Origin: Motilimonas sp. E26
GTDB taxonomy: Bacteria > Pseudomonadota > Gammaproteobacteria > Enterobacterales > CBDFNC01
Reading direction: 5' to 3'
DNA: 64,000 nucleotides
Assembly (NCBI RefSeq): GCF_021278025.1
Contig: NZ_JAIBHJ010000018.1
Location: 26,126 to 90,125, forward strand
The notes beneath the pieces were generated by a model. It made no database searches, was not told the DNA's origin, and was given only the letters and a program-made list of their open reading frames with translations. Position numbers and translations under genes: made by a program. Positions 16,251 through 54,465 of the stretch are shown here, piece by piece. Numbering within the stretch: the stretch's first letter is position 1; each line of letters starts with the position of its first letter.

Positions 16251-17882
16251 ATGACACTAAAAACAAAAGTATGGGGCATGGCTACGTTGACCTTAGTTGC
16301 CCTCTTAGGGGTTATGCTAATGGGCCTTTATACCTTGAGGCAGGCCAGTGATATCGATAATAAGTCGAGAATATATCAATTACTTAAGAGTACCTTTTCT
16401 ACTGTTAACCAAATCGAGTTGTATGTCGCGTCAGGCAAAATGAGCGATGAGCAAGGTAAAGAGTTGGCGGCGCAGATTCTTCGTGAGAATAAATATAATG
16501 ACTCCGAATATGTCTACGTGGCTGACGAAAATATGAATTTTGTGGCTGCGCCTCATGATCCTCAGCTTCATGGCACCAGCTTCCATGATTTTAAAGATGC
16601 GCAAGGGGCAAGCGTTGGACAAATTCTACTGAATGCGGTGAAAGCAAACCCCAATGGCATTGTTGAATATGAGTGGACGTCGCGAAATGCAGATGGTGAC
16701 GTTGCTGATTTACTTTCTGTTGCTCAAGTGTCAAAACGCTGGAAATGGGCTGTCGGAACGGGGATTCGCTCTACTGAAGTAGACGAACGTTTTTGGAATT
16801 CGGCACAAAATCAGCTGATTCTGTGTTTAATTACTGCTGCTATTCTGGGTTTTATCATTATTACGACGATTCGCAAAATAACGACTGACTTAGGTGGTGA
16901 GCCTGAAGATGTATTGACCTTAGTTCGAGCGGTTGCTGCGGGGGATTTATCAACCAAAGTGAAACGCGATGGTGAAGATTTTGATGAGTCGAGCATTTAT
17001 GGTTCGGTAGTGACCATGCAAGCGTCACTACGAGATATTATGAACAGCGTTGCGGCTGCGACTGCAGAGCTGCGCAATGAAGCAACCAATGCTGATAGTC
17101 GCTCAAGCCAGGTTGATCAGGTATCGGATGTACAGCGCAGTGAAACGGACATGGTTGCCACTTCGATGACAGAAATGTCATCGTCTGCTAGAACCGTTGC
17201 AGAAAGTGCAAATAATGCTGCTGCCTCAACTCAAGAAGCGGACGCAGAAGGTCAAAGGGCGCAAAATATCGTATTAAGTTCGGTTAGTTCAATTGAAGGC
17301 TTGGCTTCTCAAATTGATGAAGCCGCGCAAGTGATTGGTGAGCTTGGACGTGATGTAGATAATATCGTGTCGGTGTTAGATGTTATTCGAGGCATTGCCG
17401 AGCAAACTAACTTGTTGGCGTTAAATGCAGCAATTGAAGCAGCAAGGGCTGGTGAGCAAGGTCGTGGTTTTGCAGTCGTTGCAGACGAAGTGCGTAATTT
17501 AGCGAAACGAACTCAAGATAGCACCGCAGAAATTCAGCAAATGATAGAACGCTTACAAAGTGGTTCGCAAAAAGCCGTCAGTTCAATGGAGAACAGTAAA
17601 ACGTCAAGTATTGATACGGTATCGGGCGCGCAAGAGGCGGCACAAGCCTTACAACAAATTGCTGACTCATTAGGCACTATAACCGAAATGAACCATCAAA
17701 TAGCCAGTGCTGCAGATGAACAAACTAAGGTAGGGGATGATATCTCTCATCGTATCAACGCTATTGCTGACAGCTCTCACCAAGCTGCGGAGCTCGCCCG
17801 TGAAAACCGAGCTTCGACTAACGTTATAATGGATTTAGCCGATAACCTAGAGCAGCAAATACGTAAGTTCAAAGTAAGTTAA
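16251..17882 (+). CDS. Methyl-accepting chemotaxis protein with single Cache domain
   Basis: A 543-residue inner-membrane chemoreceptor that would control a CheA/CheW kinase array. A membrane segment at 8-28 leads to a periplasmic sCache-type ligand domain (about 35-180, with [15 protein letters not shown] and the closing KWAVGTGI typical of this class). A second segment follows at about 186-206, then HAMP (207-262) and the cytoplasmic signalling domain. The conserved hairpin tip ([19 protein letters not shown] and onward, about 383-414) is intact. Probable methylation sites lie in the flanking helices; no C-terminal NWETF-like tether is present. The ligand is unknown; sCache receptors often sense small carboxylates. 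A strong terminator follows directly. Confidence 0.93.
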
Positions 17883-41913: not shown

Positions 41914-44721
41914 TTAAAAAATAGTATTTTCTTTGCTGGTTAAGGCATCTTCATTGGCCCCCAGTAAGGACATGAGTTGTTTTAATACTTGGTGCTTCTG
42001 ATAGACCCAGCGGGTGTAGGTTAAGGGATACAAAATGAGCCCCGCGCGTTGAAATATTTTGTAGCGGCTTAAATGATAGTAATCTTGCGATTCTCCCGGA
42101 TAGCCAATTAAATCTAAGGCAACGGTATTCTCACCATATTGGCAGACTAAATCTAATTCAGCGCCCGCAATGGGGTAGTTTTTCCAAGTATTGATACCGT
42201 TTATTGTCAATAAACGCGAAACCTCTGCCTGAAAAGCATCAAAGTCACTGACATCATCTAGCGAGTAGCTTTGGTTACGTTCTATGCTATGGATGTACTC
42301 AAATAACAGCGATTGAGATGGCAATTTATGTGGGCGAGTAGAGAGGAATATATATTGCTCATCACGCGCGCGCGTGATGGCTACATTAAACACGTCTTCA
42401 CGATTCATGTAACGATATTGTTGCCCTGAGCTACTCTCATCGACACACATACTGATTAACATAATGTCACGCTCTTCCCCTTGGAAGCCATAGGCGGTTT
42501 CTATTTTTATTTTATGGCGCTCAATTTGGTCTGGGGAAAGATACTTACCAATTAATTTGGTGAGCAAAATGGTTTGTTCACGAAATGGCGATAGGATGCC
42601 AATGCTAGAAGTCAGCTCCATTTCTGTGAGGTTGTGGATCTTGTTACGCAAAAATTCTAATAAGGTGATGGCTTCTTGTTGGTTTTTGCCACTGTTATAT
42701 TCGCCCTGACATTTAATGATACTGATTGGGTATTCACCTTGATTTCCGGGCTTATGGCGCATGATCTTGAGTTGACGGTGATAAAATTTACGGTTACTAA
42801 AATCAATCAGTGCACTTTTACTACGAAAGTGTTCATCTAACACCACAATAGCATGTTGATTTTGAATACGTCGATTAGCCAAATCTAACGCACTGACGTT
42901 GCGATAGTTAAATTCGTCAGTTTGGCTGGCTAAATCATATCGCGCCTGTAACTTATTTTGTTTCTTACTGGATAAAAAAGAGATAAATCTGAGCTGTTTA
43001 TTATCGCCTACTATCACTAAGTGTTTAGCTCGATAGATAGCGGGTAATACACTGGCGATATCACATTGGCTCGCTTCATCAATGATCACTAAGTCAAACA
43101 ACTCAGCTTTAAGGGGTAAGCTACGGTGCAAGTCACCTAAAGTTCCAAGCCAAACTGGCATAGCTTGCAGCAGGACACTGTAGTCAATTTTGTCAAAACT
43201 GGCCTCTTGCTGCGCTGAGTTATTGGCATTAATAGCCTCACGAAAGCTATTAAGCTGACGACGATGATGGGTTAATACTTTGTGTAAGCGCTTGCGTCGA
43301 CTTTCACTAATGTAGTGGCCTAAAGCCACATGGCGAATACGTTGTTGTTGAGTTATTTGGGCAAAGACATCGAATAAAATATCTTGATTCAAGGTGGCAC
43401 GTTTTGCCCACCAAGCACTAAAGCGGTTTAAAAAATTGGCATTTTGCTGCACTTTCCAAGTCGACATTCCGTAGCGAATGGCTTTTTTACAGCGCTTGGC
43501 AAACTGTCGCTCCAGTTTCTCCATTTTTAGCTTTTGTTTTTGCAGGCTATCGAGTGGTGTATGGGTTTCATTTTGCTGCGTTAGGTAACCACTTAACAAA
43601 TCTTTTAAGTAGCGTTTTAATTTTTTATGGTAGCTAGCGTTACCGACGCGTACCACAAAGTCTTGCTGACCTAACATAGATTCAATTTTATCGCCAACAA
43701 TGTTGACACTTTCATTATTTTGACCCACCACAAGAACCGATTCGCCTTGTAAATAACGCTCAAGTGCGAGACAAGCTATTGTGTATGACTTGCCTGTTCC
43801 TGGCGGCCCGATTATTTGACTAACAGTATGGCGTGAGGCGTTATATAGCGCATCACGTTGAGCTTTACTGAGTACCGCGGGAATATTATCTGGCATGGCA
43901 GGCGCAAGCTGAGGGGCTGGGCGCAGATCGTCAGGGGGTTGTGGCCCATATTTATCGTTAGGCCTGTTTTGCTCGTTGTCGTTACTTTTCTCACCAAGCA
44001 AAAATTGCGTCACAGAGTTGGGCATATATGAGGCCACGGCCATGGCTTTTAAGTCATGGAGTATCCCTCTAGAGGCGACCGAGTAGTTGATTAAAGTAAC
44101 AGCAGAGGCGGCGATTAAGCTAAACTGGTCGGTTTTTATTTGAGTTTGTTTAGCCTCAATTTGCTCCGCCGTGGCCAACTTTGGATAATGATAAAGCTCT
44201 AAACAGTTTATGTTATTACTTAATGAGCTGATCCAGTGGCTTAGTTTTGCAACATCGCGTTCGGTAATATCTTTATTAATAAACTCAGGCTCTGAGCTTT
44301 GACTCGATTCCGCTAAGATCCAGCGTAATAAAGGCCAATTAACAATAGGCTTGCTCTTTTCAATGGTGAGGTAATATTCGTTGTTTTCCACGCTCACTTG
44401 TGCTTGATAATAGAGCAGGGGGGCGCAAACCGTGCGTTTGCCTGGGTAGCTGGGGGGCAATTTTCCGAGTAAAAAAAAGCTACCGTAGAGTAATGTCTTT
44501 TCGCGTTTGTATAGGGTTTGCGATTGATATAAACCTTCACCATAACTGCGTGGCAGTGGATAACGTGGCAGCTCACCTGATATTAACGACTCTCTACCTT
44601 GAATAAACCGCGTCGATTCGCAATTTCGATGGAATACATTGAACAGAGTTAAATCTCGATTATCAGCTTGATAACAAGCACGATAATATCGAATGAGATT
44701 GCGACAACTCCGGTCTAACAT
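41914..44721 (-). CDS. Superfamily 1 (Upf1-like) helicase with C-terminal nuclease-like domain
   Basis: About 935 residues. The N-terminal third (about 1-270) is not recognised. Helicase motifs follow: Walker A GPPGTGKSYT near 305, motif II as VIIDEASQCD near 547, and motif VI as NVAITRARDEQ near 780. This is the DNA2/Upf1-like class (AAA_11/AAA_12). The last 100 residues look like a restriction-endonuclease fold of the Vsr/DUF559 type (AELDLV, VALDLIG, SRYKIFQRAG), but the catalytic lysine is not obvious. The ATG at 44721 has AGGGA five bases upstream; the longer TTG frame (44784) has no SD. It is the last gene of a five-gene same-strand run. Confidence 0.83.
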   Translation of the reverse strand: MLDRSCRNLIRYYRACYQADNRDLTLFNVFHRNCESTRFIQGRESLISGELPRYPLPRSYGEGLYQSQTLYKREKTLLYGSFFLLGKLPPSYPGKRTVCAPLLYYQAQVSVENNEYYLTIEKSKPIVNWPLLRWILAESSQSSEPEFINKDITERDVAKLSHWISSLSNNINCLELYHYPKLATAEQIEAKQTQIKTDQFSLIAASAVTLINYSVASRGILHDLKAMAVASYMPNSVTQFLLGEKSNDNEQNRPNDKYGPQPPDDLRPAPQLAPAMPDNIPAVLSKAQRDALYNASRHTVSQIIGPPGTGKSYTIACLALERYLQGESVLVVGQNNESVNIVGDKIESMLGQQDFVVRVGNASYHKKLKRYLKDLLSGYLTQQNETHTPLDSLQKQKLKMEKLERQFAKRCKKAIRYGMSTWKVQQNANFLNRFSAWWAKRATLNQDILFDVFAQITQQQRIRHVALGHYISESRRKRLHKVLTHHRRQLNSFREAINANNSAQQEASFDKIDYSVLLQAMPVWLGTLGDLHRSLPLKAELFDLVIIDEASQCDIASVLPAIYRAKHLVIVGDNKQLRFISFLSSKKQNKLQARYDLASQTDEFNYRNVSALDLANRRIQNQHAIVVLDEHFRSKSALIDFSNRKFYHRQLKIMRHKPGNQGEYPISIIKCQGEYNSGKNQQEAITLLEFLRNKIHNLTEMELTSSIGILSPFREQTILLTKLIGKYLSPDQIERHKIKIETAYGFQGEERDIMLISMCVDESSSGQQYRYMNREDVFNVAITRARDEQYIFLSTRPHKLPSQSLLFEYIHSIERNQSYSLDDVSDFDAFQAEVSRLLTINGINTWKNYPIAGAELDLVCQYGENTVALDLIGYPGESQDYYHLSRYKIFQRAGLILYPLTYTRWVYQKHQVLKQLMSLLGANEDALTSKENTIF

Positions 44722-44820
44722 AAAATTCCCTGAAATAATGAACTGTGCTGATGCATCAACAGGACATTCTGCAATGCTAGGCAAAAAATTTAAAGCTGCT
44801 AAATAGCAAAATTTGAACTG

Positions 44821-44843
44821 GGCGAAGAGAGATACTCTTCGCC
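44821..44843. repeat. Perfect inverted repeat between nuclease and helicase genes
   Basis: A 9-bp GC-rich stem (GGCGAAGAG / CTCTTCGCC) with a 5-base loop lies in the 210-bp gap between the PLD-type nuclease stop and the helicase start. It lacks a U-tract on either strand. It may reduce read-through into, or processing around, the helicase gene. Confidence 0.5.
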
Positions 44844-44931
44844 GCGTAACATATCAAGTTAACTTAGGAGGGAAAACCGGAATTCTATTAATTATTGTTT
44901 AGAAATTGAATTCGCTAGGTTAGAAGAGGCA

Positions 44932-45618
44932 TTAGCCCAACTTGGTCCATAACCGCTCAAACTCATAACTAAAAGCTTGTACTAACTTAGGGTTATCGGT
45001 AGTAGCGATATTCTCTTGGTTAAATTTTGAGGCACTTCGGGTCCAGTTAAAGCTGCCGTTTAACAGAATTTTCTTGTCAAATAAGGCAAACTTGTTGTGC
45101 ATATGATGCTCAGTGCGATCGACCACTACTGGAATACCGGCTTCATCAAGTTGATAGACATCTGACCCTTTGTCGTTGCGCTTATCATTATCCGAGATGA
45201 TACGCACATTAATACCGCGTTGGTGGGCCTTAAGTAAGGCGGCGGTAATCTCATTACATGAGATAGTAAAGACACAAACATCAATACTATGGCGTGCTTG
45301 GTTACACAAGCTAACAATGCGGTTTAAGCAATCGTTACCTGGGCTAAAACAAGCGTCGGCGACGATGCTAGGCTGCTGGCTATTTTTGTCTAAGGTTTTG
45401 ACCACATTCTCTAGCCATTTGATGGCGCGAAACTGTGCTTCGTTAAAATCACCTTGCTCTAACAGCACCGCAAAAGCTTTATTACGGATAAAACTAATTT
45501 TATCGGGCTGATTTTGCAGTTCTTGGGTTAATTCCGCTAATTGATTTTTCTCACTTTGATCAAGTTTATTGTCGGCCAAGCTGTCAATTAACGCTTGTTC
45601 TATCTCTTGTTGATTCAT
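44932..45618 (-). CDS. Single-HKD phospholipase D-type nuclease with helical N-terminal domain
   Basis: A 228-residue soluble protein. Residues 1-75 are all-helical and acidic, with LADNKLDQSEKNQL, reminiscent of TerB-like or EF-hand-like small helical domains; this part is tentative. Residues 90-228 form one PLDc_2 domain with the catalytic HKD motif H174-N-K176-FALF-D181, followed by NGSFNWT at 187-193 and a conserved E202. Single-HKD proteins such as Nuc and MitoPLD dimerise and cut nucleic acid or phosphodiesters. Lacking a signal peptide, it should act in the cytoplasm. It starts 2 bp after the AAA+ ATPase stop, so the two are translationally coupled. Confidence 0.85.
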   Translation of the reverse strand: MNQQEIEQALIDSLADNKLDQSEKNQLAELTQELQNQPDKISFIRNKAFAVLLEQGDFNEAQFRAIKWLENVVKTLDKNSQQPSIVADACFSPGNDCLNRIVSLCNQARHSIDVCVFTISCNEITAALLKAHQRGINVRIISDNDKRNDKGSDVYQLDEAGIPVVVDRTEHHMHNKFALFDKKILLNGSFNWTRSASKFNQENIATTDNPKLVQAFSYEFERLWTKLG

Positions 45619-45620
45619 TC

Positions 45621-48600
45621 TTATTTACCTTGTTCGTGTTTGGGCTTTTTGCTAATACTCACCTGAGTTTTACCTGTTTCAGTGGTGGTACGCTTAAAGC
45701 GATAGCGAGTTTGACTTAAGGTATCGTTAATGCCGGTTAAGTTGGCATTAATATCAAGTAATTGCGATACCGCTTTGAGAGTCATGTCGCCATCACCGCC
45801 TAAGGTTTTATGTTTAATAAAATCGGCTTTTATTTGCTGCCAGCGTTGAACTTGCTCGGCAGTCATGTTGCCACGTAACTCGGCTAATTTAAGTAAGTTT
45901 TCTTCGGCTCCTGCGGCGAGCATTTGCGCTTCGCCTAAATAGTGGTCTTCAATCAGTTGCATCAGTTCATTGTCATTCATCACCGATGAGACCTTTTCCG
46001 CCATTTTATTCATGTTACGGTAACTACCTTGTAACTTGAACGGTGGCTCTTGGCGGTATTTATCAGCTTGCGCAGCAGAGGCGATATAACTTTGGTTTAC
46101 CGACAAAACAACTTCTTGAATACGTAGCAACTTGGCCAATACGCCAGTGATTTCATTGAGCTCAGCGCCGCTGTAACCGTGCTCTAGCTCACTGCTATCG
46201 ACTTGGTTGCCTTGGGCCATGTTCACTAGTTTATAAATATCTTGCTGTGAACGCGTTGCCAACGGTGCCAGTACTGGGTTTGAGGTCATGGCATTTTCCA
46301 AGTAACTCAAAGCAAATGCTTCGTCCATGCCACCTAAAATATCGCCTAGGTTATAAATATCGGCGCGGTTAGCCAGCATGTCTGGAATTTGGAATGCTTC
46401 ACCTGATTCGGTGTAAGGGTTACCTGCCATGATGACGCAGAATTTTTTACCGCGTAAATCATAGGTTTTCGGTTTTCCTTGCCAGATACCTTCAATACGG
46501 CGAGTACCATCACACAGCGAAATGAACTTTTGTAGGAACTCTGGGTTGGTGTGCTGAATATCATCAAGATACAGCATCACGTTGTTACCCATTTCTAGAC
46601 CTAAGTTAAGTTTAATCAGCTCTGCTTTTGCCGTTGCGTTCGGTGCTTGTGCAGGGTCGAGAGAGTCAACTTCATGACCAATTGATGGACAGTTGATCTT
46701 CATAAAGATCAAGCCTAAACGGCTGGCAATGTACTCCATCAAGGTGGTTTTACCGTAACCCGGCGGTGAAATGAGCATTAATAAGCCCATCAAGTCGGTA
46801 CGCTTGGTGTCGCCCACAGTGCCCATTTGCTTGGCGAGGTTATCACCAATAATAGGTAGGTAAGCGTCGTTGATCAGTTTGTTGCGAACAAAAGAAGACA
46901 ACGGACGCGCTTTAAATTCAGAAAGGCGTAATTGTGCTTTCTGATTTTGCGTTACCTGGCTGCGTACTTGTAAAAATTCATTATAACCGGGCAAGACAAC
47001 CTGCTGATGGTGCTCAAGGCGCTGCAAAAAGTTATCAAGTGATAAGTTTAAGCTGCGATCTTTGATCCGTGCATGTTGTCCCATTAAGCCGCTAACCGTG
47101 AAATCAAGATTGATATCTAATACGCGACGGCTAACTCTACCTTCACCATTGATGAGGGCAATAGCTTCCGGAATGTAGCCTTGGTATGGCTGCATTTTCT
47201 TGTTGCTGACTAAGGCTTGTAACCAAGCTTGGGTGAGTGCCCAGCGTTGTCCTATTTGTCCTTTTAGTTTCTCTAAGGTGTGCTGATAAGAGTTCCACGA
47301 TGCCGTGTCCATGGCGCGTTTCAGCTCATCTGCTAGATGGGTGGCGTATTTGCTACTGGAGAAAACCACGGGCTCTTTGGCGAGCTCTTGCACTAAATAG
47401 CGCGAAGCTAAGTCAATCGCGGTGTCATCAACCGGTAATTCAAACTGCTGAGCAAATGCTTGCTGCGCTTGTTTTATTTCACGCTCAAGTAGTTGCTTGG
47501 CATCGCTGGAGCTAAACAAGGCTTCCATGCGCAGCGCTGATTTAGCGCGCTCAACCCAAGTTTGTTGCTGCGGCTCTTGTTGGTTGTTGGCCCAATAAAT
47601 CGCGGCAAAACCACGGCTGAGTGGTGGATACTTGAGCACATCTGCACCGGTTAGAGCCGGTAATAATTGCGCCAAGATCAAACTCGCATCATGATCATGA
47701 ATACCCCGCTCGTAACCCTCTTTATAGCGCGGTGCGGCAAAATCTTTAACCAGCTGGCTAAGTTGTTGCTCATCGGTTTGTGCCAATCTTAGGGCTTCTA
47801 ACGTTAGCCCATTTTCGTTGCGCTCAGCAGCATCTAAAATTTGCTTAACGAGGTATTCGGCGCGATAAACATCGGCGGTTTCTGATTCAATTTCTTGTGG
47901 CCAAAAGGGTTTAAGGCGGTTTAGTGCTTGATCATTAGCAACGTCAAAGTAGTCGGTGCCAGTTAAGTGAAACACCAGTTTGTCGTCTTTTGGTAATAAG
48001 GTGAGGTCTAACTCTTGAGTGTTTACGGTAAACTTATGACGAGGCCCCAATTTGATAACGTTACCACCGTCCTCAAATATTTCCGACTTATCGCGTAATG
48101 AGCGTACGGCTTGATCTTTGCTATTTTTAAATTTGGCTTCAACATCATCGGCTTTGACCGAATCATCGAGATCTCTAAGCTGGGATACTAAATCATAAAT
48201 CTTAAGCGCTAAGGCATCGGAAGCAAAAAAAGTATTAAGCTCGTCAAGCTCGGTAAATTTTTGTACTCGGCGTGTAATACTGGCCAGAATTCGCTCGGCA
48301 GCATCTTTTAGGGAGCTGGCTTTGCGTTGGCGGGTTTCCACCATACGCTGGCGGTGCGCTTCAAAGCTTTCGATAACCTCTTCACGTTTGGTCAGAATAT
48401 CGGTGAGAAACTCTTCTTGCTCACTAAACTGGCTTTCCAGCTCTTCTAACTGCACCAGTAAACGAGACAATTGTTCATCGGCTTTTTCTGGGGTATTAGC
48501 TAAGCCTAAAGCGTTGGTAATACTTTGGCTAAATAGCTTAAATTGCGCTGAAAATTGCGCTAAGGATTCGGCACTGCCTAAGCTGCTTTTTTTATGCTTA

Positions 48601-50642
48601 GCGCTGGCTTTAGTTTGATTTAAACGGCCATAAATTTCTGAAATGGTGTCGATGATGCGGGTGCGCACCGTGGCATCGTTAACTTTCAAGGTTGCCATTA
48701 ACTCGGACAGTAAATCGAGCCCTGAAGCCATTAACTCCAGTTTTTCGGCAACTGGCTCAAGCTCGGCGACGGAAACGACACTCTCTAACTCGTGATTAAG
48801 TTGATCTAATTTATCGTTATAAGGCGCTAATGAGGCGTCTTTAGCCAAGAAATCAACGGTCTTTTGGCTTAACTTCGCTTCTTCTTGCTCGAGCTTTGTG
48901 CCCATCTCGGCAATTTTTTGCTCATCCATGTAGCGCATGGATTTAATGGTTAGTAAATGCCCTTTTTGTTTGCGCAGTGAATCTAATCCGCCAACAAACA
49001 GCTCAGGTGTTTGCCAAGAGTCAGGTGTTAACGCGCTAATAATGCTAGCTTGCTTTTGCTGGGCTTGTTGTAGCGCTTGTTGCGCTTGCTGACGGATGGT
49101 TTCAACTTTTTCAAACTCATCCAAAACCAGCTCGGACGTTTCTGATATTTGCCGTAGTAACGGATCAATTCCGTTTACTTGAGGGGCGTTCATCCAGTGA
49201 TAGCTATCAAACATGCGGTTAACATTTTTGATTAGCTCGCCATAAAGCTTAATCGACACCGCTTGGTTATTAATGGCTTTCACTGTACTAAATAGCTCAG
49301 AAATACCGCGGACTAATTCAGCATTACCTATTTTGCCAAAAAAGCTTTGCTTACTGGGTTGAGTGCTGGCGTAAAAATCACTGCAATAAGGCGTTTGCCA
49401 AATTTGCATTGGGTGCACGCGTGTTGGCTCGTCTTCAGCATAAAACAGTACCACACGACCATCGGCGAGGGCGGCGTAGCCGTGGCCGAATAGTGGGTTT
49501 TCCAATGATTTATTGATCAGATTGTAAGAGTATAAGGCGACTTTACCTTCAACGGGTTCATAAAATACATACAGCACATCTTCGCCATTGGGGCTTTTGA
49601 TGGTTCGCTTATATTCAAGACCAGTGATGTCATCATCAAAGGTTTTGTATTCGCCATTTTGTAAATAATAACCACCGGGGAAAATAATGCCGTGGTTTTC
49701 AGGTAGCTGAATGCAGGCGTGGCCAATATTATCAATGCGCACCACGGTTTCGGTATTGCGGTTGTAAACTAAATAACGCCAAGTTTCTTCGCGATAGGGC
49801 AATATTTTCAATAAGATCAATGAACCGACTTCGGCATAGCAAAAGCGCGCATCATCCAGTGATTGGTTATCATCAACCACATCTTCGGCGTAAATACCAA
49901 GGCCTGAATTAGTGTTGTTTTCGATCTTGATGGTTAAGTCACCTTGGGTGGTTTCCACAAACAAGGTGTCTAAAATATTCATGTGCGGGAAGCGTCCCGC
50001 CACTTCATTTTCACGAGTACACTCACGCCATTCAAAATCATATTGATTAGGAGGGAGAAGATCGCGTTCGCCGCGATTATCAATATACTCGATGGTTTGG
50101 CCATCGCTGCTAATACTCCAACGGAATACTCGTACGTCAGACAGCTTTAAACCAATTTGAAAACTGGCCAGTAACTTGCCATCACGCACCGCCAGGCGCA
50201 GTAGACGGGCTTCTTTGTAATAGGTGTAAAGCTCGGTGAAATCTTGCTCAAAGCGTCCGTTATCTAAGAAACTGCCAGCCATGGGTTCGGCATGCATCTC
50301 ATAACCGGCTTCGGTTTGATTTAATTTATACAGGCCAAATACATCCGAAATTTTAATTTCTTGTTTCAGGCCGATAAAAACGTTGTAGCCAAATAACAGG
50401 TAATCGCCCGCACACACGATATCACGTGCTTGGCAGTTATTTTCGGTTCTGACTCTGACTCGCCCCAGCACATGCATGTCTTCACGGCCAAATTCTTCTA
50501 GGCGTGCTTGGTTGAGTTGCTGGGTTTTTTGTTCAAGCTCTGCGCCTTGCTGATTAAGGCGCGCTCGAATAACTTGGTAAGCTCCGCCTTGGGCGACGGC
50601 GGCTAAATCTTGTTCATTTTCTGCAACAGTTTGATCCGACAT
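45621..50642 (-). CDS. Giant AAA+ ATPase (annotated in relatives as DNA repair ATPase)
   Basis: A 1673-residue cytoplasmic protein. Residues about 40-480 are beta-rich with propeller-like repeats (for example VLGRVRVRTENNC and SVYSYNLINKS-like strands). Residues about 500-900 are predicted coiled coil, rich in glutamine and glutamate. After a mixed region comes a C-terminal AAA+ module (about 1270-1500) with Walker A SPPGYGKTT near 1293, Walker B MLYLDDIQH near 1357 and sensor 1 in MAGNPYTE. From memory the family is labelled DNA repair ATPase and may include DUF3686, but no function is proven. Start: ATG at 50642, with AAGGA six bases upstream. It lies between a flotillin gene and a nuclease gene. 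Confidence 0.82.
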   Translation of the reverse strand: MSDQTVAENEQDLAAVAQGGAYQVIRARLNQQGAELEQKTQQLNQARLEEFGREDMHVLGRVRVRTENNCQARDIVCAGDYLLFGYNVFIGLKQEIKISDVFGLYKLNQTEAGYEMHAEPMAGSFLDNGRFEQDFTELYTYYKEARLLRLAVRDGKLLASFQIGLKLSDVRVFRWSISSDGQTIEYIDNRGERDLLPPNQYDFEWRECTRENEVAGRFPHMNILDTLFVETTQGDLTIKIENNTNSGLGIYAEDVVDDNQSLDDARFCYAEVGSLILLKILPYREETWRYLVYNRNTETVVRIDNIGHACIQLPENHGIIFPGGYYLQNGEYKTFDDDITGLEYKRTIKSPNGEDVLYVFYEPVEGKVALYSYNLINKSLENPLFGHGYAALADGRVVLFYAEDEPTRVHPMQIWQTPYCSDFYASTQPSKQSFFGKIGNAELVRGISELFSTVKAINNQAVSIKLYGELIKNVNRMFDSYHWMNAPQVNGIDPLLRQISETSELVLDEFEKVETIRQQAQQALQQAQQKQASIISALTPDSWQTPELFVGGLDSLRKQKGHLLTIKSMRYMDEQKIAEMGTKLEQEEAKLSQKTVDFLAKDASLAPYNDKLDQLNHELESVVSVAELEPVAEKLELMASGLDLLSELMATLKVNDATVRTRIIDTISEIYGRLNQTKASAKHKKSSLGSAESLAQFSAQFKLFSQSITNALGLANTPEKADEQLSRLLVQLEELESQFSEQEEFLTDILTKREEVIESFEAHRQRMVETRQRKASSLKDAAERILASITRRVQKFTELDELNTFFASDALALKIYDLVSQLRDLDDSVKADDVEAKFKNSKDQAVRSLRDKSEIFEDGGNVIKLGPRHKFTVNTQELDLTLLPKDDKLVFHLTGTDYFDVANDQALNRLKPFWPQEIESETADVYRAEYLVKQILDAAERNENGLTLEALRLAQTDEQQLSQLVKDFAAPRYKEGYERGIHDHDASLILAQLLPALTGADVLKYPPLSRGFAAIYWANNQQEPQQQTWVERAKSALRMEALFSSSDAKQLLEREIKQAQQAFAQQFELPVDDTAIDLASRYLVQELAKEPVVFSSSKYATHLADELKRAMDTASWNSYQHTLEKLKGQIGQRWALTQAWLQALVSNKKMQPYQGYIPEAIALINGEGRVSRRVLDINLDFTVSGLMGQHARIKDRSLNLSLDNFLQRLEHHQQVVLPGYNEFLQVRSQVTQNQKAQLRLSEFKARPLSSFVRNKLINDAYLPIIGDNLAKQMGTVGDTKRTDLMGLLMLISPPGYGKTTLMEYIASRLGLIFMKINCPSIGHEVDSLDPAQAPNATAKAELIKLNLGLEMGNNVMLYLDDIQHTNPEFLQKFISLCDGTRRIEGIWQGKPKTYDLRGKKFCVIMAGNPYTESGEAFQIPDMLANRADIYNLGDILGGMDEAFALSYLENAMTSNPVLAPLATRSQQDIYKLVNMAQGNQVDSSELEHGYSGAELNEITGVLAKLLRIQEVVLSVNQSYIASAAQADKYRQEPPFKLQGSYRNMNKMAEKVSSVMNDNELMQLIEDHYLGEAQMLAAGAEENLLKLAELRGNMTAEQVQRWQQIKADFIKHKTLGGDGDMTLKAVSQLLDINANLTGINDTLSQTRYRFKRTTTETGKTQVSISKKPKHEQGK

Positions 50643-50665
50643 CATGCATCCTTTTCAAATACTAG

Positions 50666-50696
50666 GTGTAAAAACCGGCTCAATCGAGCCGGTTTG
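50666..50696 (-). terminator. Terminator or attenuator between yqiK and the AAA+ ATPase gene
   Basis: A perfect 10-bp stem (AAACCGGCTC / GAGCCGGTTT) with a 4-base loop is followed on the minus strand by TT-A and further pyrimidines (GGTTTTTAC). It sits 23 bp after the flotillin stop. It probably lowers but need not abolish read-through to the ATPase gene. Confidence 0.72.
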
Positions 50697-50718
50697 TAAA
50701 CAATGACGTGGTTAAACG

Positions 50719-52947
50719 TTATGCTTCAGTGGACTCTGTTGTCGGTTTTTTCGCTTTGGTTTTTTCGTTCAATAAGCCACCTAGTACATCAGATGAGTCT
50801 TTCGCTGGCTGTTGCGCAGTTTCTTCATTACCAATGAATTTGTTTAGTAGCGCGGCTACCGATGGGCTTTTACCCACTAAGCCGTTGATAGATTTGCCTA
50901 CCGTAAGCGCTTTGCTGAGTGAGTTAAAGTAGTCACCTTGACCACCAACAATATCAATGTTGGCTTTTTCAAGAGCAGAAGACAGTACATTCGCTTGTTG
51001 TACGGCAATGTCTTTGTTAACCGAAATCGCTTCCATTGCTTGCTCGAAGTCTTTCTCTAGCTGCATACGGAACTCTTCATGCTCACGTGCATCTTTTGAC
51101 ATCGTAGCCATGGCGCTGAACTTCTCAACCAAGCCTTGTGCTTCGGCGTGGAATTTCGCGCTAAGCACGTCGGCTTCGGCCATACCTTGTTCTTTATCAC
51201 CTTTGGCTTGAGCAGACAGTTTCATTGCTAATACGTCAGCTTCAGCTGTACCCAATTCGCGTGAAGCAAGGGCTTTAGCCAAGCCAATGTCTTTATCACC
51301 TTTAGCTTGAGCAGACAGTTTCTCTGCCAGTACCGCCGCTTGTGAAAGGCCGATATCTTTATCACCTTGGGCTTGAGCGGTGAGTTTCTCAGCCAGAACC
51401 TTCGCTTCTGCTAGACCATCTTTTTCTTTCGCGCTGGCGTTCGCTTCTAGTACGCGGGCTTTAGATAGGCCAATTTGCTCATCACCTTGTGCTTTAGCAA
51501 TTAAGGTTTCTTGTTCAATTCTCGCCTTCGCTAAGCCTTCTTTTTCTAGGGCATCGGCAAGGGCTTCTTTCACCCGTGCTTCTGCTAGACCTGGTGCTGA
51601 TTGCTCAGCCTCAATGCCTTCTGCAAGTTTCTTCATTGCATCAGCATTTTTCGCTGATGCTTCCAGATCAGCTTGGGCCATGGTGATGATTTTTTGCGCT
51701 TCGTGTTTCGCTTTGATTTCATCTGCTTCAGCTTGTTTCACTTGTTTAACAAGCTCTTCTTGTGCTTCGGCTTCAGCATTTAGGATCACCACTTGGCGAT
51801 TACGATCGGCCTCTGAAACTTCACGAACTTCTTTGATTCGCTCTTCTTCTTCCGCCACGGTTTTTTCTACCGCAATACGCTCACGAACCACGTTAGCGAT
51901 TTCTTTTTTCTCAACTTCTAGAGCGCGTTCTTTCTCAATGGTTTGCAGCGCTACTTCTCGTTCACGAGAAACGACTTCTAAGTCTTTCGCGCGTTGTACC
52001 CGTTCTTGCTCAACGCCAATGGCGCGTTCGCGGTTTTGTTGTGCTACTTCAATTTCACGTAGCTTGTTTTCTTCTTGAATAGAAATTTCTTGTTCGGTTG
52101 TAATGCGAGCTGATTCCGCTTTTAAGCGCTCTTCCTCGCTAACACGCATTTGTTCTGATTGTTCACGCGCTTGAATGTTTGCTACTTCGCGCTCTTGTTT
52201 CGCACGGGCTTCTTTTTCTTGGCGATCTAGTGATAGCAAGTGCTCGATGGTTTCAACGTTTTTCTTCTTAATCGCACGCTCTTCATCGCGAATAAATTCG
52301 TTGGTTTTTACATTTTCTCTTGAAGTCACTTCTGTGATTTTACGAATACCTTCAGAGTCCATGATGTTGTTTGGATCCAATGCCGATTTTGGCGTTTGTT
52401 CCAGATAGTCGATTGCCACGTCTTCAAGGGCGTAACCGTTTAAGTCATTGCCGATGGTTTTTACTATTTCATCGCGGAAAAATGCTCGCTCTTCAAATAG
52501 TTGTAAAAACTCCATCTTTTTACCCACGCTTTTTAGCGCTTCAGAGAATTTGGCATTAAATAGATCATTTACGGCATCTTTATCTGAGGCGCGATCGGCA
52601 CCAATCGATTTAGCCACTTTCAAAACGTCTTCAGCGGTTTCATTTACACGCAAATAGAATGCAACTGTGATGTCGGCGCGCATATTATCCAAACAAATTA
52701 GGCCGTCTTTACCGCGACGGTCAATTTCTAAGGTAATTAATGAGATGCGCATTTTTTCCATTTTGTGGATAACTGGAATGACTAAGGCACCAGTGAAGCG
52801 AACCTTTGGCACGGCTTGAGTGGTGTTAACAATCAGTGCCGTACCTTGTGGCACCTTAATGTAGAAGGCTTTAACAAGCATTGCCATGGCCAGTAGGCCG
52901 ATGAATGCAATGCCAACAATGATCAGAATAGTTGTTATGTCTAACAT
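50719..52947 (-). CDS. yqiK: Flotillin-like SPFH protein (YqiK-type)
   Basis: A 742-residue inner-membrane scaffold protein. One membrane segment (about 7-28) is followed by an SPFH/band 7 domain (about 35-200, starting VPQGTALIVN). A very long alpha-helical tail rich in Glu, Lys and Ala covers 200-690, and a short C-terminal segment ends TESTEA. The tail contains near-identical units around GDKDIGLSQA and LAEKLSAQAKGD (about 480-600). Flotillins form oligomeric membrane microdomains. The NfeD/YqiJ-like gene lies 19 bp upstream, the usual pairing. The ATG has AGGGA six bases upstream. Confidence 0.9.
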   Translation of the reverse strand: MLDITTILIIVGIAFIGLLAMAMLVKAFYIKVPQGTALIVNTTQAVPKVRFTGALVIPVIHKMEKMRISLITLEIDRRGKDGLICLDNMRADITVAFYLRVNETAEDVLKVAKSIGADRASDKDAVNDLFNAKFSEALKSVGKKMEFLQLFEERAFFRDEIVKTIGNDLNGYALEDVAIDYLEQTPKSALDPNNIMDSEGIRKITEVTSRENVKTNEFIRDEERAIKKKNVETIEHLLSLDRQEKEARAKQEREVANIQAREQSEQMRVSEEERLKAESARITTEQEISIQEENKLREIEVAQQNRERAIGVEQERVQRAKDLEVVSREREVALQTIEKERALEVEKKEIANVVRERIAVEKTVAEEEERIKEVREVSEADRNRQVVILNAEAEAQEELVKQVKQAEADEIKAKHEAQKIITMAQADLEASAKNADAMKKLAEGIEAEQSAPGLAEARVKEALADALEKEGLAKARIEQETLIAKAQGDEQIGLSKARVLEANASAKEKDGLAEAKVLAEKLTAQAQGDKDIGLSQAAVLAEKLSAQAKGDKDIGLAKALASRELGTAEADVLAMKLSAQAKGDKEQGMAEADVLSAKFHAEAQGLVEKFSAMATMSKDAREHEEFRMQLEKDFEQAMEAISVNKDIAVQQANVLSSALEKANIDIVGGQGDYFNSLSKALTVGKSINGLVGKSPSVAALLNKFIGNEETAQQPAKDSSDVLGGLLNEKTKAKKPTTESTEA
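51190..51510 (-). repeat. Tandem in-gene repeats coding for helical units of flotillin
   Basis: The flotillin tail is encoded by recurring blocks beginning TCTTTATCACC (plus-strand view) at 51191, 51290 and 51356, with a weaker copy near 51477. The clear spacings are 99 and 66 bases, i.e. 33 and 22 codons, multiples of 11. The repeats are diverged but recognisable at the DNA level, so they come from internal duplication. Confidence 0.7.
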
Positions 52948-52966
52948 ATTTTGTCCCTAAAAATAA

Positions 52967-53575
52967 TTACGAATGAGGGGTTACGTGGTAAATGTCTTGC
53001 TCTGCTTGGTATTCCACCAACAAAACAGTATCGCCACGATTAAGTTGGTTAGGTTGTTGTGCTCTTATTTTTATAATGATACCGGCTGCGCCATTGTTAA
53101 AATTGGCTTCACCAAAGGTATCGGTCACTGTGTTGCTGCGGATTACCGCGGTTTGACCAACAAGATCTTTTTTGCTTAAGACTTCTTGATCGCGAAAAAC
53201 TTTCCTTAAGGGCTTTACACATTGGCAGGCAATGAGGTCGCCGAGCAGGAGGCTAATGAGCATTACTGCCAAGCCAACTCCCAATTGAGCGAGTAAAGGA
53301 AGCTCCCATTGATTCATTTGATTTTGCATTATCATGCTAACTATCCACGAAAAATAAAATAGTAATGACAATGCAATGGTGGCAGGCACGCCATCCAGTT
53401 TTAGCTTGGCCAGTATGCCAGTCATGTCTAAAAATGAGTCGTCGACGTCAATATCAAGCATTTCAATTTCGGTCATGCCTATCATGGTGGCTAACCAATA
53501 TAAGGTAAACAAAATAACAAAGCCGGTATAAATGGCAGTTGGCAAACTAAATGCAAGATTGAAAAACATGCTCAT
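52967..53575 (-). CDS. yqiJ: YqiJ-like inner-membrane OB-fold protein (NfeD-related)
   Basis: A 202-residue inner-membrane protein. Membrane segments lie at about 13-33, 62-82 and 94-114. The C-terminal OB-fold domain (about 135-200) contains DLVGQTAVIRSNTVT and GDTVLLVEY, as in NfeD/YqiJ proteins, which are partners of flotillins. The N-terminus lacks the serine-protease part of long NfeD proteins. It is the first gene of the run ending with the helicase; yqiK follows 19 bp later. Confidence 0.87.
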   Translation of the reverse strand: MSMFFNLAFSLPTAIYTGFVILFTLYWLATMIGMTEIEMLDIDVDDSFLDMTGILAKLKLDGVPATIALSLLFYFSWIVSMIMQNQMNQWELPLLAQLGVGLAVMLISLLLGDLIACQCVKPLRKVFRDQEVLSKKDLVGQTAVIRSNTVTDTFGEANFNNGAAGIIIKIRAQQPNQLNRGDTVLLVEYQAEQDIYHVTPHS

Positions 53576-53967
53576 TGTGTCTATTTCCTACCTAATGATT
53601 AGCATTTTTATTGTTATTTGATTATCAAGGCAATATTAAACGCTTGTTTATATCAGTATTAAAAAGCCAGCGCAATTATGTGTTTGACTATTTTTTGCCA
53701 TCTTGGGTTAACCTCGATCTATGACTCATTTTTGCGTCATCACTTTTTAGAATCGGGCCTGAAAAAATAGTCAAGTAAACTCAATAAACTCTAATTAACG
53801 AAAGTTAATCTTCTAAACACCGGATGTTTACCAATGGGGTTATATGATAGCCACAAGTTTTAGGCAGTTACCTTGTTTTATTGTTAGTTCGCTCTTTGTT
53901 AATTGCTCAATGTTATTGATTAATTTACAGCTAGAAGTCAGATTAGCAAAAGATAAAAGGGAGCAAT
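53576..53967. other. 392-bp divergent promoter region
   Basis: AT-rich sequence between the yqiJ operon (leftward) and the small membrane-protein gene (rightward); it must hold both promoters. A short dyad ATTAAC-GAAA-GTTAAT lies at 53794-53809 near the middle and could be an operator or a hairpin. I could not assign -35/-10 elements with confidence and saw no SOS-type LexA box. Confidence 0.45.
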
Positions 53968-54219
53968 ATGAAGTCTTATTTTCAAACTATTCGTTCACAA
54001 GCAGGAGCTAATGCACCTGTTAATGGTTTTCCGGCAGTGCTACGAGCGTTTATTCTCGTGTCATTTTTTCTGTTAGCACTGCCACTTCTTTTTATACTGT
54101 TGGCGCTGCAGCTAGTGATAGGGGTCGGTTTATTTATTGCCGCAATGGTGATGAAAAATCGGCAGCATCATCAAGCTGAAAGCTGGAGTAATGGTGAGAA
54201 GGTTATTAACCCTCTCTAG
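53968..54219 (+). CDS. Small membrane protein, 83 residues
   Basis: Family not recognised. A polar N-terminus (about 1-25) is followed by two hydrophobic stretches (about 28-47 and 50-62) that form one long or two short membrane helices, then a polar tail with histidines (NRQHHQAESW). The ATG has GGGAG five bases upstream, a strong start signal. It is divergent from the yqiJ operon and followed by two copies of a terminator. A role with the flotillin cluster is possible only by position. Confidence 0.7.
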   Translation: MKSYFQTIRSQAGANAPVNGFPAVLRAFILVSFFLLALPLLFILLALQLVIGVGLFIAAMVMKNRQHHQAESWSNGEKVINPL

Positions 54220-54258
54220 TTAATTGTGCAGTGTGTATTGAGTGTTTTAGTTTTAATG

Positions 54259-54297
54259 TGTTCCATGTTCCATGTTCCATGTTCCACTTGTTCCATC
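54259..54297. repeat. Short tandem repeat TTCCATG
   Basis: Three exact copies of the 7-base unit TTCCATG are followed by two degenerate ones (TTCCAC, TTCCAT). It lies just after the small membrane-protein gene. The 7-bp unit could change length by slippage, but it is not inside a credible reading frame. Confidence 0.75.
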
Positions 54298-54330
54298 CGT
54301 AAATTGTGTTTCTATTGTGCTTGTCACCAT

Positions 54331-54388
54331 CCCTTTGCCCAACCTTGCGTTGGGCTTTTTTTTGTCGTTATTAATTGGGTGGTTTATT
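54331..54388 (+). repeat. Duplicated terminator unit, copy 1
   Basis: A 58-base unit starting CCCTTTGCCCAACC and ending GGGTGGTTTATT. It contains a perfect 7-bp terminator stem (GCCCAAC / GTTGGGC, 54337-54355) followed by eight T residues. A near-identical copy follows 78 bp downstream. The hairpin should end transcription of the small membrane-protein gene. Confidence 0.87.
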
Positions 54389-54408
54389 GTGCTTATACTC
54401 AAATAATG

Positions 54409-54465
54409 CCCTTTGCCCAACCTTGCGTTGGGCTTTTTTTGTTGTTATTGGTCGGGTGGTTTATT
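54409..54465 (+). repeat. Duplicated terminator unit, copy 2
   Basis: The second copy of the preceding 58-base unit, with a few changes in the part after the T-run. Its terminator (54415-54440) has the same stem and loop and seven T residues. The copy reaches the stop codon of the lactonase gene on the opposite strand, so the duplication includes intergenic sequence and stops at the gene edge. Confidence 0.87.

Follow-up and report, generated by a model that had tools for sequence, protein, structure and literature searches.

Can a membrane scaffold and enzymes acting on nucleic acids belong to one bacterial system? The question is raised by five consecutive minus-strand genes in a 64,000-nucleotide stretch of Motilimonas sp. 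E26 (the window, meaning the whole stretch analysed), all present where a preliminary description of this DNA had placed them. They encode a YqiJ-like inner-membrane protein, a YqiK-type flotillin, a giant AAA+ ATPase, a phospholipase D-family (PLD) protein with a single HKD motif and a superfamily 1 (SF1) helicase. Results of our neighbourhood comparisons showed that the YqiJ-flotillin-ATPase core is an old operon, kept together also in other phyla. What stays constant is bound to the membrane and powered by ATP; what is optional comes behind it, consists of enzymes and is cumulative (ATPase, then PLD, then helicase). The neighbourhood counts place the linkage of the five genes beyond chance. 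Tentatively, and at somewhat less than even probability, we read the five genes as one envelope-stress module, in which the ATPase, at a flotillin scaffold, would switch on a predicted nuclease-helicase pair.

Neighbours of the ATPase across genomes

For the comparison we assembled 110 loci, consisting of the nearest relatives in genomes (the best 80 of 229), 4 loci on plasmids, 7 from a phylum search, 18 from a family of 148 genomes (G190) and the window. Two loci with identical ATPases were dropped, leaving 108 distinct ATPases. Twelve plasmid records carried the ATPase, and 11 were opened, a second Proteus record being left out. The 110-locus sample is non-random and leans towards near relatives and Pseudomonas. 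Less biased but smaller samples were 398 Pseudomonadota genomes and the 148 genomes of the single family, which we infer to be Pseudomonadaceae, given that its members are nested among Pseudomonas and that one of its ATPases is the same as that of P. alcaligenes.

Upstream of the ATPase, the flotillin gene was found in 95 and a YqiJ match in 94 of the 96 distinct loci with at least 4.5 kb of upstream sequence; the same loci held PspA in 69 and a DUF2170 gene in 66 cases. Downstream, among the 94 loci with at least 3.5 kb, the PLD gene was present in 43 and the helicase gene in 15, two of them broken. In none of the 110 loci did the helicase gene follow the ATPase unless the PLD gene was there too, while 28 of the 43 PLD-bearing loci lacked the helicase. 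The random neighbours that the preliminary description had considered were thus not observed, the core partners being constant across the 96 loci and also in other phyla; of the genes it wished to see followed, yqiJ and yqiK stay with the ATPase and the two enzyme genes do so in the fractions just given. The helicase, which it took for a possible independent neighbour, recurs in the same gene order behind the PLD gene in all three Motilimonas genomes and in Pseudomonas.

The ATPase itself is sparse, being found in 8 of the 398 Pseudomonadota genomes (the window's own included); all 14 named control genomes lacked it. Within the 148-genome family it occurred in 26 genomes, 13 of which had the PLD (E ≤1e-25), and 5 of these 13 had the helicase (E ≤1e-60). 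Every PLD gene there shared contig and strand with the ATPase, 3.8-4.4 kb behind the DUF3686 domain, and the helicase match began 26-312 bp behind the PLD match, one of the five being interrupted. Hypergeometric values for this nesting, uncorrected for kinship, were 7e-12 for PLD within the ATPase set and 2e-6 for helicase within the PLD set.

Other genes were seen near the core. In 33 of 95 loci, counted before duplicate removal, the ATPase is followed by a rhomboid-family gene, which often separates it from the PLD gene (for example L067:15256-15813, PF01694, and L016:15375-15929). A protein of 76-79 aa (L027:9536-9772, L017:15399-15626), weakly TerB- or EF-hand-like below cut-offs and with D39-G40 and D43 invariant in 15 sequences, is encoded in the flotillin-ATPase gap, ahead of yqiJ or behind the ATPase. 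Two uncultured Pseudomonadales (L070:15411-19889, L017:15399-17416) carry TerB-like, MscS-like and zinc-ribbon-like genes behind the ATPase, in the position that PLD and helicase occupy at other loci (PF00924 was tested in L017). On plasmid pQBR103 (L002) the core directly follows a yjfI-pspA-rhomboid-DUF2491-DUF350-DUF1190-GspS-like row, which joins two operon groups of Ravi et al.

Domains and relatives of the five proteins

The catalytic motifs of the ATPase, the HKD enzyme and the helicase look intact at the sequence level. The window ATPase, 1674 rather than the previously given 1673 residues long, shares 98% identity with its Motilimonas cestriensis counterpart and 88% with the one in M. 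eburnea. Pfam assigned PF12458 (E = 2.6e-196) and AAA, with DUF3686 spanning residues 36-483; Walker A (SPPGYGKT), Walker B (LYxDDIQ) and the motif NRADIYNLGD are near-invariant in the 108 sequences. Neither the flotillin nor the yqiJ-like protein of the window has a Pfam match of its own. The description of these two as a yqiJ-yqiK pair held for the flotillin, which has an N-terminal transmembrane (TM)-like segment and SPFH-region homology to E. coli YqiK (29% identity over 442 aa, 9e-41; hhalign 99.9%); Band_7 was matched in 4 of 16 aligned flotillin members, the window's not among them. The YqiJ label is weaker, at hhalign 93% over 134 columns with 22% identity to E. coli YqiJ and a BLASTP value of 1e-4. 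YqiJ_N was matched in 2 of 15 aligned members (best E 0.0034) and not in the window protein; L003, which had been read in a wrong frame, was omitted from the second YqiJ alignment.

The PLD protein matched PF13091 (E = 3.9e-30), and its single HKD motif (H174, K176, D181) is invariant across 25 sequences. By profile, its nearest kin among solved structures, compared through their PDB sequences only, are Zucchini/MitoPLD, Nuc and NucT; the two-domain phospholipase 7e0m was a far weaker match (3.7e-4). Nuc and NucT are named nucleases, and Zucchini is deposited as a cardiolipin hydrolase. Residues 3-79 were modelled as four helices, with no TM-like segment predicted in the protein, and this N-terminal region gave no Pfam family above cut-off in three proteins tested. 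A TerB-like identity for the region appears doubtful (hhalign against the small TerB-like neighbour gave only 17%), and so does a Mokosh-like one, the region alone, from five PLDs, yielding only weak JukA, PDC-S48 and GajB matches. Because the region matches so weakly by itself, an MkoB match across residues 3-200 is no proof for it.

Of 72,556 plasmid records, 1528 matched the PLD (E 1e-15), just two of them over at least 80% of its length. In both, from Vibrio campbellii and Photobacterium, the PLD gene starts directly at the ATPase stop codon or overlaps it. These ATPases are only 43-44% identical to that of the window and still adjoin a PLD gene; the ATPase-PLD bond is therefore old. P. 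aeruginosa also has a PLD of this subfamily (P0235). A PLD tree was set aside, since its rows for L081 and L143 were in a wrong frame and L028 and L081, whose helicases are broken, had been scored as lacking one. As a side observation, a TelA gene follows the PLD gene in both Vibrionaceae operons (L160:9721-10776, PF05816; L161:9715-10797, by likeness).

The preliminary description had announced a helicase with a nuclease-like domain. Its SF1 part stood: AAA_11/AAA_12 and the Upf1-type fold were matched, and 12 helicases retain the SF1 motifs. The nuclease-like domain, MTES_1575, stayed below cut-off (E 0.0023), and its label PF18741 appeared on 7 of 120 relatives listed (of 469). The C-terminal end (residues ~826-920) was modelled as alpha-beta3-alpha-beta, restriction-fold-like, with invariant Asp 857 and 870; as the ExK lysine is absent, nuclease activity of this domain is doubtful. 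The helicase family is wide, with 469 proteins at ≤1e-30 among 7996 candidates, including Shewanella and Pseudoalteromonas. Among 274 Gammaproteobacteria genomes there were four relatives at ≤1e-100 besides the window's, all without PLD or ATPase in the stretch fetched. One further unlinked relative was found in Persicobacter, and at the Reinekea ATPase locus (L053) a weaker one lies ~5 kb upstream on the opposite strand. A PLD-helicase fusion that could serve as Rosetta-stone proof was sought in vain, no PLD domain occurring in the 120 listed of the 469 relatives. A phage origin was likewise rejected, neither ATPase nor helicase being matched among 50,697 phage records.

Three lineages that stand apart on the ATPase tree have the helicase: Motilimonas, the P. 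composti/P. alcaliphila group and the group of P. alcaligenes. The gene is also lost easily, as shown by a remnant (L028) and a split copy (G688/L081). Descent as one ancient operon gene was suggested by a small tree, which split 13 linked helicases from 5 others (support 90/85), and was rejected when wider trees (134 rows; 28 rows) broke up the single linked clade. A constraint tree of 28 rows holding the linked helicases together was rejected by 50.7 log units (approximately unbiased (AU) test, 5.3e-5). The group tested comprised 10 rows, 6 linked plus P0003, P0005, P0006 and P0007 of unknown context; it was chosen after the 134-row tree had been viewed, and for nearly all P rows the neighbouring genes are unknown. 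The helicase P0054 of Alteromonadaceae M269 grouped on the Pseudomonas side; it is not linked to the M269 ATPase, whose locus (L054) showed no helicase over 10 kb. As the Motilimonas and Pseudomonas helicases stand in separate branches of the wider family, related helicases were probably recruited twice into the same position behind the PLD gene.

Described systems and competing explanations

Joining a scaffold to DNA-acting enzymes had been called unusual in the preliminary description; scaffold plus PLD has in fact been described. As given in the available text of Ravi et al. (2024; PMC11237479), an operon of CesT/Tir, PspA, YqiJ, flotillin and an AAA+ ATPase with coiled coil and beta-propeller, in some Proteobacteria also with PLD, is read as serving membrane-complex assembly, and abbreviated operons without PspA may use PspA encoded elsewhere; the word helicase is absent from that main text. 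The window resembles this operon in its adjacent, same-strand genes for YqiJ-like protein, flotillin, AAA+ ATPase and PLD, and differs in lacking CesT/Tir (DUF2170) and PspA and in the added SF1 helicase. With the DUF2170-PspA dyad absent from the locus and present elsewhere in the genome (L135), the locus is, by that description, the abbreviated form plus PLD and helicase. A second PspA gene (L134) has neighbours that we take to be pspF and pspC.

In P. aeruginosa PA14, according to the available text of Wallart et al. (PMC10948618), the six genes bacA-bacF, led by DUF2170 and PspA, form one operon by reverse transcription PCR with a putative sigma-54 site, and bacA mutants show biofilm, rhamnolipid and virulence phenotypes. 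From gene order and the listing of PA3728 as an ATPase (in the part available of PMC8190622), we infer that bac includes a counterpart of this ATPase and the same core. The sigma-54 site and the biofilm phenotype set bac apart, and a helicase is not mentioned in the available text of PMC10948618. During infection of P. aeruginosa by the lytic phages JG005/JG024, PA3728-PA3732 belonged to a set of 17 genes with raised expression in every infected sample at either time point (PMC12041424), and a pa3728 insertion mutant has served as a growth control (PMC12599236). E. coli has the same yqiJ-yqiK order, yet in MG1655 (3190000-3200000) its annotated neighbours include no gene for an ATPase, a PLD or a helicase.

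The enzyme pair recalls Mokosh, in which an SF1 helicase likewise adjoins a PLD; all scanned members matched MkoC, MkoA or MkoB profiles. However, solely the helicase and PLD parts align (MkoA at 618-1068 of 1112 or 1027-1586 of 1607, MkoB at 227-421 of 610), the rest of MkoA/MkoB being unmatched and the fused MkoC architecture absent. The top PADLOC family was MkoC for the helicase and the window PLD, and DrmC was best across PLD members. The five proteins gave partial DrmC, DpdK and DpdJ matches to DISARM/Dpd, and DrmA/DrmB or Dpd partners were not among them. Zucchini/MitoPLD has an N-terminal membrane anchor and works with a helicase partner in piRNA making. The window offers a similar set of single-HKD enzyme, Upf1-family helicase and nearby membrane scaffold, but its PLD has an N-terminal helical region in place of a TM-like segment. 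A likeness between Mokosh and the piRNA pathway is stated in the available text of PMC11291487.

In the envelope-stress module that we tentatively prefer, YqiJ and flotillin would make a membrane platform. There the ATPase, with PspA where present, would respond to membrane disturbance and remodel or release a partner; it would control the PLD, which would dimerise into an RNA/ssDNA nuclease. The helicase would move 5′ to 3′, feeding or displacing strands for the PLD and adding access to structured or bound nucleic acid, which would be cut at the membrane, phage entry being one possible trigger. The module would thus equal a PspA-associated membrane guard with an added Mokosh-like effector pair. 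A bolder version, which we consider distinctly unlikely, is membrane-anchored nucleic-acid surveillance, where flotillin and ATPase would sense membrane damage such as phage genome injection and fire the Zucchini-like nuclease and the Upf1-like helicase at RNA or ssDNA that is incoming or near the membrane. It would parallel the pair of Zucchini and its helicase on the surface of mitochondria and would have been assembled twice independently. No clear output is known for bacterial flotillins and PSP-type systems, which are regarded as membrane guards, and PLD plus helicase offers a testable one, the cutting of nucleic acid at the membrane; if true, envelope stress would be linked with anti-phage defence, and the enzyme pair that eukaryotes turn on transposons would gain a bacterial setting.

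Several findings weigh against the envelope-stress module. Few loci (15 of 94) have the helicase, even in a sample biased to near relatives, and, given the ATPase, the value for its nesting within the PLD set is only 0.02. In genome G495 a PLD of 41% identity sits on a 4.3-kb contig behind another gene, and a helicase is on a separate contig with no PLD or ATPase in the 12 kb fetched. Moreover, the 28 of 43 PLD operons without helicase, and a core often found with PspA, make a lipid-directed rival serious: a pure envelope-repair operon, its PLD acting on phospholipids such as cardiolipin at flotillin domains, its ATPase remodelling membrane complexes, and the helicase a bystander. PspA and DUF2170 (69 and 66 of 96 loci), the rhomboid and TelA neighbours, the assembly reading in the available text of PMC11237479, the bacA phenotypes in that of PMC10948618 and the deposition of Zucchini as a cardiolipin hydrolase all suit it. 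We nevertheless hold it to be somewhat unlikely, with Zucchini, Nuc and NucT as closest PLD kin, the last two named nucleases, phospholipase 7e0m so much weaker, and the helicase found behind the PLD gene and nowhere else in the 148 genomes at the cut-offs used.

That the helicase is an unrelated neighbour in Motilimonas and the unit is the first four genes, a view compatible with the other rivals, appears unlikely. The 210-bp gap with its hairpin speaks for it, as do helicase relatives that are unlinked where checked (L123-L126, L162 and M269 by L054), but all three Motilimonas genomes keep the order, and so does Pseudomonas, with hardly a gap between the two genes (L027). Doubtful to a greater degree is a Mokosh-like defence pair that would use the promoter of the psp/bac operon in front of it but work independently of flotillin and ATPase. 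The MkoC assignments fit this, and broken helicase copies could signal intermittent selection; against it, most PLD genes linked to the ATPase have no helicase behind them, the PLD gene touches the ATPase gene even in Vibrionaceae, and Mokosh architecture is matched only in part. A DNA-repair machine, after the Pfam name of DUF3686 (ATPase involved in DNA repair), is very improbable: helicase and nuclease neighbours and a gene near a Pseudomonas locus that we presume to be of recJ type agree with the name, yet it is membrane proteins that constantly accompany the ATPase, whereas PLD and helicase may be missing, and no test was seen behind the family name.

Core and PLD are already known from PMC11237479. 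As far as open-licence searches reach, the helicase is new as a position-specific, probably twice-recruited extension, as are the PLD-Zucchini kinship, the PLD-ATPase bond in Vibrionaceae and the nested counts. The same literature returned no paper on DUF3686, alone or with flotillin, on a flotillin, PspA and AAA+ ATPase operon with phage infection, on the helicase together with this operon, on amidoligase/YgiC or on PA3731 upregulation with phage, and unrelated papers only for PA3727.

Layout of the locus and its flanks

Table 1. Coordinates of the five genes and of the gap before the helicase gene (positions in the window).
Feature	Positions	Strand	Remarks
yqiJ-like inner-membrane protein, 202 aa	52967-53575	(-)	three TM-like segments; 134 columns alignable to E. 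coli YqiJ
YqiK-type flotillin, 742 aa	50719-52947	(-)	one N-terminal TM-like segment, SPFH region, long repetitive part, probably coiled-coil
Giant ATPase, 1674 aa	45621-50645	(-)	DUF3686, DUF7902, C-terminal AAA+
Single-HKD PLD protein, Zucchini-like, 228 aa	44932-45618	(-)	PF13091; HKD motif; N-terminal helical region
Upf1/IGHMBP2/Sen1-like SF1 helicase, 935 aa	41914-44721	(-)	AAA_11/AAA_12; restriction-fold-like C-terminal domain ~826-920
PLD-helicase gap, 210 bp	44722-44931	(-)	9-bp perfect hairpin at 44821-44843, without T run

From yqiJ to the helicase gene the intergenic gaps are 19, 73, 2 and 210 bp, which bears out the three distances given earlier (19 bp between yqiJ and yqiK, 2 bp between ATPase and nuclease, 210 bp before the helicase). 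The helicase start was taken at the conserved ATG (44721); an upstream TTG would move it to 44784. On the minus strand of 44722-44931 neither a sigma-70-like promoter nor a terminator-like site was called. The gap's hairpin is partly retained in L007 and not retained in L006. In the Pseudomonas locus L027 the PLD codons end at 16446 and the helicase starts at 16449.

Ahead of the operon, no sigma-54 promoter as in bac was found in 53576-54463 allowing ≤2 mismatches. Between yqiJ and the gene at 54464 lie two identical terminator-like hairpins with T runs (54337-54355 and 54415-54433), spaced 78 bp within a near-repeat, and upstream of yqiJ there are two small divergent open reading frames of 87 and 83 aa, one of which (~53967-54210, plus strand) looks membrane-protein-like by eye. 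At the other end, a YaeQ gene (PF07152; 40272-40847 in the window) lies close behind the helicase gene in all three Motilimonas genomes. Homologues of YaeQ, 32-41% identical, were present in 41 further loci, all of the Pseudomonas group, so that Motilimonas and Pseudomonas share more of the neighbourhood than the operon alone.

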